Shown piece after piece: positions 6,751 to 9,338 of a stretch of DNA of 36,962 nt. The number at the start of each line of letters is the position of its first letter. Positions within the stretch are counted from its first letter, which is position 1. Source of the DNA: Lachnospiraceae bacterium (lineage in GTDB: Bacteria; Bacillota; Clostridia; Lachnospirales; Lachnospiraceae); assembly GCA_017482485.1 (NCBI GenBank), contig JAFUMV010000150.1:1-36962 (forward strand), in the 5' to 3' direction. A program made the translations under genes and the position numbers. The notes under the pieces are model-generated. The model did no database searches, was not told the origin of the DNA, and saw nothing but the letters and a program-made list of their open reading frames with translations.

Positions 6751-7608
6751 TCAATCAGCCTGTTTTTTGGAAAGTCTTTTGCTTTCCAGACAGTTTTTCA
6801 TCAACATGGCAATTGTCATGGGACCAACTCCTCCGGGAACCGGGGTAATCGCTCCTGCAATCTCAGAAACATCTGAAAAGTCCACATCACCGCAAAGCTT
6901 ATTGTTTTCATTGCGATGGATTCCCACATCAATTACAACTGCTCCGGGTTTTACATATTCTTTCGTGATCATCTTCGGTTTCCCGACCGCTACTACCAGA
7001 ATATCCGCTCTTTTTGTGATTTCCGGAAGATTTCTGCTATGGGAATGCGCGATGGTTACCGTGCCGTTTTCCTTTAATAAAAGCTGTGCCATGGGTTTTC
7101 CGACAATGTTGCTTCTTCCAACAACAACACATTCTTTTCCATCGATTTCCACGCCGGAACGTTTTAAAATCTCAATGACACCTGCCGGTGTTCCCGGAAG
7201 AAACCCTTCTTCCCCACATGCAAGAGCACCTGCATTCATCGGGTGGAAACCATCCACATCTTTCTTCGGATTGATGGCTTCAATCACTTTTTTCTCTGAA
7301 ATATGAGAAGGCAGCGGCAGCTGAACCAGAATGCCGTCAACATCTTCTCTTTCGTTTAATTCATCAATTAACGCAAGCAGCTTTTCTTCGCTGGTTTCCT
7401 CCTCCAATTCATAGGAAAGACTTTTGATTCCCAAATCTTCACAGGTGCGTTTTTTATTTCTTACGTAAACACAGGATGCGGGATCCTCGCCGACCTGAAT
7501 GACAGCAAGACATACCGTAATTCCTTCTTTTTTATAGTCCTCAACCTGCTGTTTTACTTCCTGTTTTATCTGGGCTGCAATTTCCTTGCCGTCTATTATT
7601 TTTGCCAT
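6751..7608 (-). CDS. folD: Bifunctional methylenetetrahydrofolate dehydrogenase / methenyltetrahydrofolate cyclohydrolase
   Basis: 285 aa, full FolD length. It interconverts 5,10-methylene-THF, 5,10-methenyl-THF and 10-formyl-THF using NADP(H). Visible signatures are YVRNKKRTCEDLG, which contains the catalytic lysine of the YxxxK set (about residues 49-61), DGILVQLPLPSH (about 98-109), the dinucleotide-binding GRSNIVGKPMAQLLL (about 163-177) and the C-terminal PVPGGVGPMTIAMLM. It lies 59 bp downstream of fhs on the same strand, so the two one-carbon enzymes form one unit. The next gene downstream begins right at its stop codon, suggesting read-through transcription into the zinc-ribbon/TPR gene. 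Confidence 0.97.
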   Translation of the reverse strand: MAKIIDGKEIAAQIKQEVKQQVEDYKKEGITVCLAVIQVGEDPASCVYVRNKKRTCEDLGIKSLSYELEEETSEEKLLALIDELNEREDVDGILVQLPLPSHISEKKVIEAINPKKDVDGFHPMNAGALACGEEGFLPGTPAGVIEILKRSGVEIDGKECVVVGRSNIVGKPMAQLLLKENGTVTIAHSHSRNLPEITKRADILVVAVGKPKMITKEYVKPGAVVIDVGIHRNENNKLCGDVDFSDVSEIAGAITPVPGGVGPMTIAMLMKNCLESKRLSKKQAD

Positions 7609-7667: not shown

Positions 7668-9338
7668 TTAGAAAAGTCCGGTGATTTTTCCGTTGTCATC
7701 CACATCAATGCCGTACGCTGCAGGCTTCTTGGGAAGTCCGGGCATCGTCATAACCGCACCTGTCAGTACGACAATAAAACCGGCACCGGCTGATACATAT
7801 GCTTCACGCACATTAATTTCAAATCCTTCGGGTCTTCCCAACAGATCCGCGTTATCAGACAGGGAATACTGGGTTTTTGCCATACAGATCGGCAGATTTC
7901 CAAAGCCCAGCTCTTCCAGCTTTTTGATCTGTTTTGCAGCAGCAGGCGCATACACCACATCGTCTGCACCGTAAATTTCCTTTGCGATGATGCTGATTTT
8001 ATCTTTAATCGGCTGATTCTCATCATAAAGAACCTGGAAATTACTTTCTTTTTCTTCCAGCGTTTTTAATACTTTCTCAGCCAGTGCAATGCCGCCCTTG
8101 CCGCCTTTTTCCCAAACTTCGGAAAGTGCAAATTCGCATCCTCTCTCTTCACAGAACTGACGGACAAATTCGGTTTCTGCCGGTGTGTCCGTTACAAAGG
8201 AGTTGAGGGTAACAACAACCGGCACTCCGTATTTCTGCAGATTTTCGATATGTTTTTCCAGATTGACAATACCTTTTTTCAGAGCATCCAGATTTTCAGC
8301 GGCCAGATCTGCCTTGGCGACTCCGCCGTTGTATTTCAGGGCACGCACAGTTGCAACCAGAACGACTGCATCCGGTTTTAAGCCGGCCATTCTGCACTTG
8401 ATGTCGAAAAATTTTTCAGCGCCCAGATCTGCTCCGAAACCTGCTTCGGTGATTACATAATCCGCCATTTTCAGCGCGGTCTTCGTAGCGCGTACAGAAT
8501 TGCATCCATGAGCGATATTTGCGAAAGGACCTCCATGAACGATGGCAGGTGTATGCTCCAGTGTCTGTATCAGATTCGGCTTTAAGGCATCCTTTAACAG
8601 TGCGGTCATGGAACCTACCGCATTTAAATCACCGGCAGTAACCGGCTGACCGGCATAATTGTAAGCCACAACGATTCTGTAAAGTATTTACTTTAAATCT
8701 TTCATATCGGCATCAAGACACAATACCGCCATGATCTCGGAAGCCACTGTGATCACAAAATGATCTTCTCTCACGGTTCCGTCCATCTTATTACCGAGGC
8801 CTACCACGATATTTCTGAGAACTCTGTCGTTCATATCCAGACAACGTTTCCATACCACCTGTCTGGTATCGATCTGGAGTTCATTTCCCTGCTGAATGTG
8901 ATTATCCAGAAGGGCTGCCAGAAGGTTGTTGGCAGAAGTGATCGCGTGGAAATCACCGGTAAAATGCAGATTCAGATCTTCCATCGGAACCACCTGGGCA
9001 TAACCGCCGCCGGCAGCTCCTCCCTTAATTCCAAAGCAGGGACCAAGAGAAGGCTCACGAAGCGCAATAACCGCTTTCTTTCCAAGCTGTCCAAAAGCCT
9101 CTCCCAGGCCGACACTTGTAGTGGTTTTTCCTTCCCCGGCAGGAGTTGGATTAATCGCTGTCACCAAAATCAGCTTTCCGTCAGGATTGTCCTGAATGGA
9201 GTTTATAAATTCATCCGAAATTTTTGCTTTGTATCTTCCGTACTGTTCCAGCATTTCTTCAGAAATACCAAGTTTTGAAGCCACATTCACGATGGGTTCC
9301 ATAACCGCTTCCTGTGCAATTTGAATGTCTGTTTTCAT
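7668..9338 (-). pseudogene. fhs: Formate--tetrahydrofolate ligase, interrupted by an in-frame TAA at 8688-8690
   Basis: Read through the stop, the frame is 556 codons, the normal Fhs length, with no frameshift. The N-terminal part (216 aa) carries the ATP loop [18 protein letters not shown] and [21 protein letters not shown]. The C-terminal part (333 aa from a GTG at 8669) carries [35 protein letters not shown] and the ending [13 protein letters not shown]. Fhs makes 10-formyl-THF from formate, ATP and THF. The TAA falls after DMKDLK, where the family has a glutamate; nearby codons also differ from the usual pattern (I and Y where R/K and G/S are common). All of this lies inside a perfect inverted repeat. 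The GTG at 8669 has no Shine-Dalgarno sequence, so the C-terminal half is probably not made separately. The intact start has AAAGGAGAG upstream. It could be a true nonsense allele, an assembly error, or a read-through or split gene. Confidence 0.9.
8680..8695. repeat. Perfect inverted repeat spanning the fhs stop codon
   Basis: TAAAGTA (8680-8686) and TACTTTA (8689-8695) are exact reverse complements separated by two bases. The premature TAA of fhs (8688-8690, minus strand) overlaps the centre. The sequence is AT-rich compared with the flanking coding sequence. Confidence 0.85.

Follow-up and report, generated by a model that had tools for sequence, protein, structure and literature searches.

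The gene for formate--tetrahydrofolate ligase (fhs) in the draft genome of a Lachnospiraceae bacterium carries an in-frame TAA, which raises the question whether the bacterium itself has lost the enzyme or whether only its assembled sequence is broken. The draft comprises 3,475,556 bases in 153 contigs and is 90% complete. The stretch of DNA analysed here (contig C127, 36,962 nucleotides) is referred to below as the window.

The interrupted fhs and its neighbour folD

On the minus strand of the window, an open reading frame (8688-9338) encodes 216 amino acids and ends in TAA, after which the same frame runs onward to position 7668 (Table 1). The match to the PF01268 profile spans the full length of the gene, and the reading frame is broken at codon 217. 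The earlier note had described a TAA within an otherwise complete fhs of 556 codons, and an intact folD. Both observations are confirmed, the first by the sequence, the coordinates and the PF01268 match across both halves, the second by the 285-aa ORF, its match to the NCBIfam FolD models and a PF02882 match without any internal stop. The interpretation that the earlier note placed on them is only partly supported, as set out below.

Table 1. Positions of the features around the interrupted fhs in the window
Feature	Position	Strand	Evidence
fhs (formate--tetrahydrofolate ligase), 556 codons, one interruption	7668..9338	-	PF01268 positions 1-556, 921.5 bits, 1 TAA inside
TAA in frame, codon 217	8688..8690	-	sequence; stop absent from other 109 aligned loci
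Fhs N-terminal part, 216 aa	8691..9338	-	PF01268 1-216
C-terminal open frame from first post-stop GTG, 333 aa	7668..8669	-	PF01268 225-556
Perfect inverted repeat TAAAGTA-TT-TACTTTA, 7-bp arms, 2-bp spacer	8680..8695		sequence
Anomalous-position cluster, codons 209-220 (209, 217, 218, 220 unmatched in relatives)	8679..8714	-	residue comparison, 108 distinct relatives
folD, intact, next gene downstream of fhs	6751..7608	-	NCBIfam FolD models; 285-aa ORF

G010 is the relative whose fhs DNA is closest to ours, and there the folD adjacent to fhs contains an in-frame TAG at codon 86 (L111:4911-4913, plus strand, contig C13). The fhs beside it is intact, and the genome holds a single PF02882 match. 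folD adjoins fhs in 6 of the 12 neighbourhoods that were fetched (L111-L122), some of which end near fhs, so that a neighbour could be missed. The best PF02882 match of five other genus members lies elsewhere and is weaker, and the genus may hold two types of folD.

fhs in related genomes

Related stretches were collected from genome_contigs (the best 80 of at least 595), and derived mostly from Lachnospiraceae and other Clostridia. A codon-by-codon alignment revealed a stop in fhs in none of the 109 other loci. Within the genus, fhs was uninterrupted in all 11 relatives that hold it; the twelfth, in which no fhs was found, is only 58% complete. These 11 relatives together with genome G015 form the set of 12 close relatives used below. 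fhs was nearly universal in the family sample, being present in 319 of the 320 good genomes, and no stop occurred among the family-wide fhs matches listed, from which no rate can be derived. In relatives from the order or family, two partial matches with a TAA were weak (18 bits, below the cut-off) and were not counted as fhs. The 23-base string around the TAA had no exact match in genome_contigs, a collection that may omit records very near our own genome. The earlier note had also asked for a second copy of fhs. A PF01268 search of the draft found a single place, the interrupted gene, and no second fhs.

Apart from the stop and its surroundings, the gene looks normal. Compared with five close relatives, it shows an identity of 0.889-0.933 before codon 209 (0.885-0.962 among the relatives themselves) and of 0.842-0.887 after codon 220 (0.818-0.926 among the relatives). 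A pseudogene with older decay was rejected, since the identity of the C-terminal part is normal and just one other position is unlike all relatives. As the coding sequence after the stop shows no decay, the change is either very recent or not present in the organism.

Other nonsense codons and the state of the draft

An ab initio scan of 633,555 bases of the same genome (approximately 18%, the window included) flagged 47 places. At 32 of these, what may be a ribosome-binding motif lies close to a start, which suggested an ordinary gene boundary; this also applied to tsaD, so the flag is imperfect. Besides fhs, six places were picked by reading. Both halves of five were searched with Pfam, whereas the sixth (L156:17675) and all remaining places were assessed by visual inspection only. 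Three genes had a family match on either side of the stop: fhs, tsaD and a gene for a Y-family DNA polymerase. The tsaD gene, the sole copy above the cut-off in the draft, contains an in-frame TGA (L153:8486-8488, plus strand, contig C29), and is free of stops in all 12 genus relatives. TsaD is usually essential and is needed by most bacteria. The polymerase gene contains a TAG between IMS and IMS_C (L191:3970-3972, minus strand, contig C8), and is stop-free in the nine genus relatives that have a match. Both stops are single changed codons outside any cluster. They support the view that the draft holds nonsense codons with which the cell would not be expected to cope, rather than one mechanism common to all.

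Two further candidates, an in-frame TAG in an epimerase-like gene (L197:1336, minus strand) and one in the gene for an AraC-type regulator (L191:12903, minus strand), had Pfam matches on one side of the stop only; the epimerase half matched one of 13 genus genomes, namely its own. A PARG-like candidate was not accepted after both of its halves had been run against Pfam. For comparison, 470,999 bases from the 12 close relatives were scanned in the same manner. This yielded 43 flagged places, two of which were accepted by reading or homology (the folD of G010 and an integrase-like ORF in G011). With three to five nonsense codons against two, the numbers are too small for the draft to be called worse than those of its relatives.

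Among the 42 RF00005 matches in the draft, none represented a Phe, Tyr, His or Ile tRNA, which points to an incomplete draft. A search for a 16S gene gave no match either; since it was positive in just 9 of 14 control genomes, this result says little and is given no weight here. A mixture of two strain haplotypes was considered and rejected, as the fetched stretches of this genome contained three between-locus matches of at least 150 bases, all of them short (161-300 bases, 83-93%).

A cluster of anomalous codons around the stop

When the stop is counted as a residue, the protein has five positions at which its own residue is unmatched in 108 distinct relatives. Four of these (codons 209, 217, 218 and 220) lie within 12 codons, which has a probability of 8.5e-5 under even placement; the largest comparable residue cluster among 25 of the relatives comprised three positions. 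The clustering of changed codons described in the earlier note was thus borne out, but its extent exceeds the 12 bases named there: codon 209 is also anomalous, although it precedes the TAA by some 20 bases and is not part of the palindrome. Counted in nucleotides, the cluster is nothing unusual, and 7 of the 12 close relatives likewise carry 3 or 4 differences of their own within 36 nt of fhs.

The bases involved are largely of one class. At 792 columns that are invariant in the 12 close relatives, our fhs differs at six, three of which lie in codons 208, 209 and 218. These three departures are all G-to-T or C-to-A, and codon 220, where 11 of the 12 relatives agree, departs in the same way. 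Compared with the codon of the nearest relative, codon 217 is also of this class, its first base varying among relatives. Outside the cluster, the nearly invariant fhs columns lean in the same direction (10 of the 20 listed). A lineage-wide G-to-T/C-to-A mutator is nevertheless not supported, despite this leaning, as the class accounts for 73 of the 313 own-specific differences in 14 genes of the window.

Judged from these sequence comparisons, we give about even chances to the reading that the TAA and the odd codons next to it stem from a local mistake in the consensus of the assembly, and rank it slightly before a real mutation. A short stretch would have been covered by few or poor reads, several G would have been called T and several C called A, and the living organism would possess an ordinary, intact fhs beside its intact folD. 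Reads at the site would then be expected to disagree with the consensus. This explanation is ranked first because it accounts for the tight residue cluster, its base class, an odd codon (209) that lies beyond the palindrome, and flanks that are unaffected, the identity after the stop being in line with that of the relatives among themselves. The near universality of fhs in the family, the stop in a gene as indispensable as tsaD is expected to be, and the incompleteness of the draft all favour it too.

Known error profiles fit in part. According to two Illumina studies, substitutions cluster in one HiSeq metagenome set, in which G is mostly misread as T, while miscalled A, C and T preferentially become G (PMC4787001); A and C share a laser, as do G and T, and in the last 50 read bases of a MiSeq set the favoured miscalls C-to-A and G-to-T made up 58-61% and 40-45%, respectively, of the errors at those bases (PMC4381044). 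The argument of the earlier note that one sequencing error would not explain several changed codons is therefore weak, since errors can cluster and the four departures of the cluster are of these favoured types; to conclude from it that a sequencing error is unlikely is not warranted. The match is suggestive only; the profiles come from other data sets, whose platform may not be that of this draft. A literature search combining all four terms for premature stops in metagenome-assembled genomes returned no paper.

Several points speak against a consensus error. A consensus is normally built on several reads, and the stops in tsaD and the polymerase gene are isolated and outside the G-to-T/C-to-A class, so that the signature is not common to them. 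The preference for G among errors at C in the HiSeq set runs contrary to C-to-A. In addition, comparable nucleotide clusters in relatives, the similar leaning of fhs columns outside the cluster and the variable first base of codon 217 weaken the signal, and the completion of the repeat, described below, would have to be a coincidence. A consensus error leads a real mutation only narrowly because of the 16S control, the occurrence of nucleotide clusters in relatives too, and the different base class to which the other stops belong.

The inverted repeat at the stop

The perfect 7-bp inverted repeat that had been reported around the TAA was found as described. By itself this palindrome is unremarkable. 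The window contains 39 perfect 7-bp inverted repeats with a spacer of 0-8 (simulated mean 24, n=20), six of them with a spacer of exactly 2, and the strand folds no better than shuffled sequences do (z -1.15; 29 of 200 as good). What sets the site apart is the comparison with relatives: all seven pairs are formed in our sequence, versus at most five of seven in 109 relatives.

A real and very recent loss of fhs, through a multi-nucleotide change that a template switch from one arm of an imperfect repeat to the other may have completed, is a serious contender, though we put it somewhat short of even chances. By our reasoning, each of the three odd codons within the repeat adds one pair relative to the nearest relative. 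A study of yeast genes describes clustered codon changes that arise when the arms of an inverted repeat are homogenised by template switching (PMC8604942), and an E. coli paper terms quasipalindromes mutation hotspots (PMC7202029). The loss of fhs is bearable elsewhere, with normal growth in complete media reported for pneumococcal deletion strains (PMC11559097). Moreover, folD is intact in the window. If the mutation is real, formate activation would be lost and 10-formyl-THF would come via FolD, through which it can be obtained from serine or glycine.

However, the odd codons lie on both arms (217 on one, 218 and 220 on the other) and one lies outside the repeat (209), so that a single event of arm copying fails to explain them all. 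The quasi-palindrome mechanism suggested in the earlier note is thus possible but incomplete. Of the 42 yeast genes whose arms measured 7 bp, only 8 exceeded simulation (PMC8604942), and perfect repeats of this size are common in the window. The retention of fhs throughout nearly the whole family also argues against a real loss, and the interruption of tsaD suggests that the draft, more than fhs itself, is at issue. A template at another site of the genome was considered as well. One other place (contig C111) shares 14 of the 15 motif bases, versus three places for a backwards control, which is what chance would give.

Possible read-through and split products

It is very improbable that the stop is read through, by a suppressor tRNA or by recoding, and that full-length Fhs, and TsaD too, is still made. 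The conserved coding sequence after the stop and the in-frame stop in a second, usually essential gene would agree with this, but the stops differ between genes (TAA in fhs, TGA in tsaD, TAG in the polymerase gene). General translational read-through that yields all three products at full length, the stops being tolerated, is just as improbable. We know of no stimulatory context after the fhs UAA. The suggestion of read-through in the earlier note finds no support in the 42 tRNA matches, an incomplete set, none of which has a stop-reading anticodon. One of these matches, a tRNA-like gene with an unusual loop, could as we reason read UAA only if position 33 were A in place of U.

This tRNA-like gene (L159:12780-12852, plus strand, contig C72) has an abnormal anticodon loop and a 93% identical copy in G010. 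It is flanked by a 220-aa ORF without Pfam match on one side and by an ORF of the RNA-ligase family, followed by a PIN-domain ORF, on the other. Together with its RNA-ligase-family neighbourhood, it may constitute an RNA-repair cassette.

Least credible is a natural split gene, whose 216-aa and 333-aa products would assemble into Fhs; each half does match its own part of PF01268 and a GTG starts 18 bases past the TAA, but the split was seen in none of the examined relatives (0 of 11 same-genus copies and 0 of 109 aligned loci), the junction itself falls within the anomalous codons, and no ribosome-binding-like motif was flagged by the ab initio scan before any start after the stop, which leaves the split subunits mentioned in the earlier note without support.

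Implications

The interruption of fhs is probably an artefact, and looks more like an error in the local sequence, or an ordinary mutation that arose very recently, than like a new biological device. Should the stop prove real, it would document one of the rare cases in which an enzyme retained by almost every genome examined in the family is being lost, and would show in a bacterium a mutation of several codons linked to a hairpin. Nonsense codons in draft genomes, even when accompanied by several changed codons near a palindrome, need to be checked in the reads before a metabolic loss is concluded.

Comparison with known systems

In its full 556-position match, our fhs resembles FTHFS (PF01268; solved relatives include 5a4j, 4ioj and 1eg7). 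The uninterrupted Fhs of G011 aligns with 5a4j over residues 2-556 with one gap (367/368), away from codons 209-220. Unlike known FTHFS, our fhs has a TAA at codon 217 and three nearby residues that are absent from 108 distinct relatives. With quasipalindrome or template-switch mutations it has in common that several adjacent codons are altered and that the arms have become fully complementary, whereas the short arms, the changes on both arms and the one codon outside the repeat set it apart. Clustered Illumina substitution errors differ in that the other nonsense codons of this draft belong to another base class, but they share with the fhs site the clustering, the G-to-T and C-to-A changes at conserved columns, and the setting of a draft genome.
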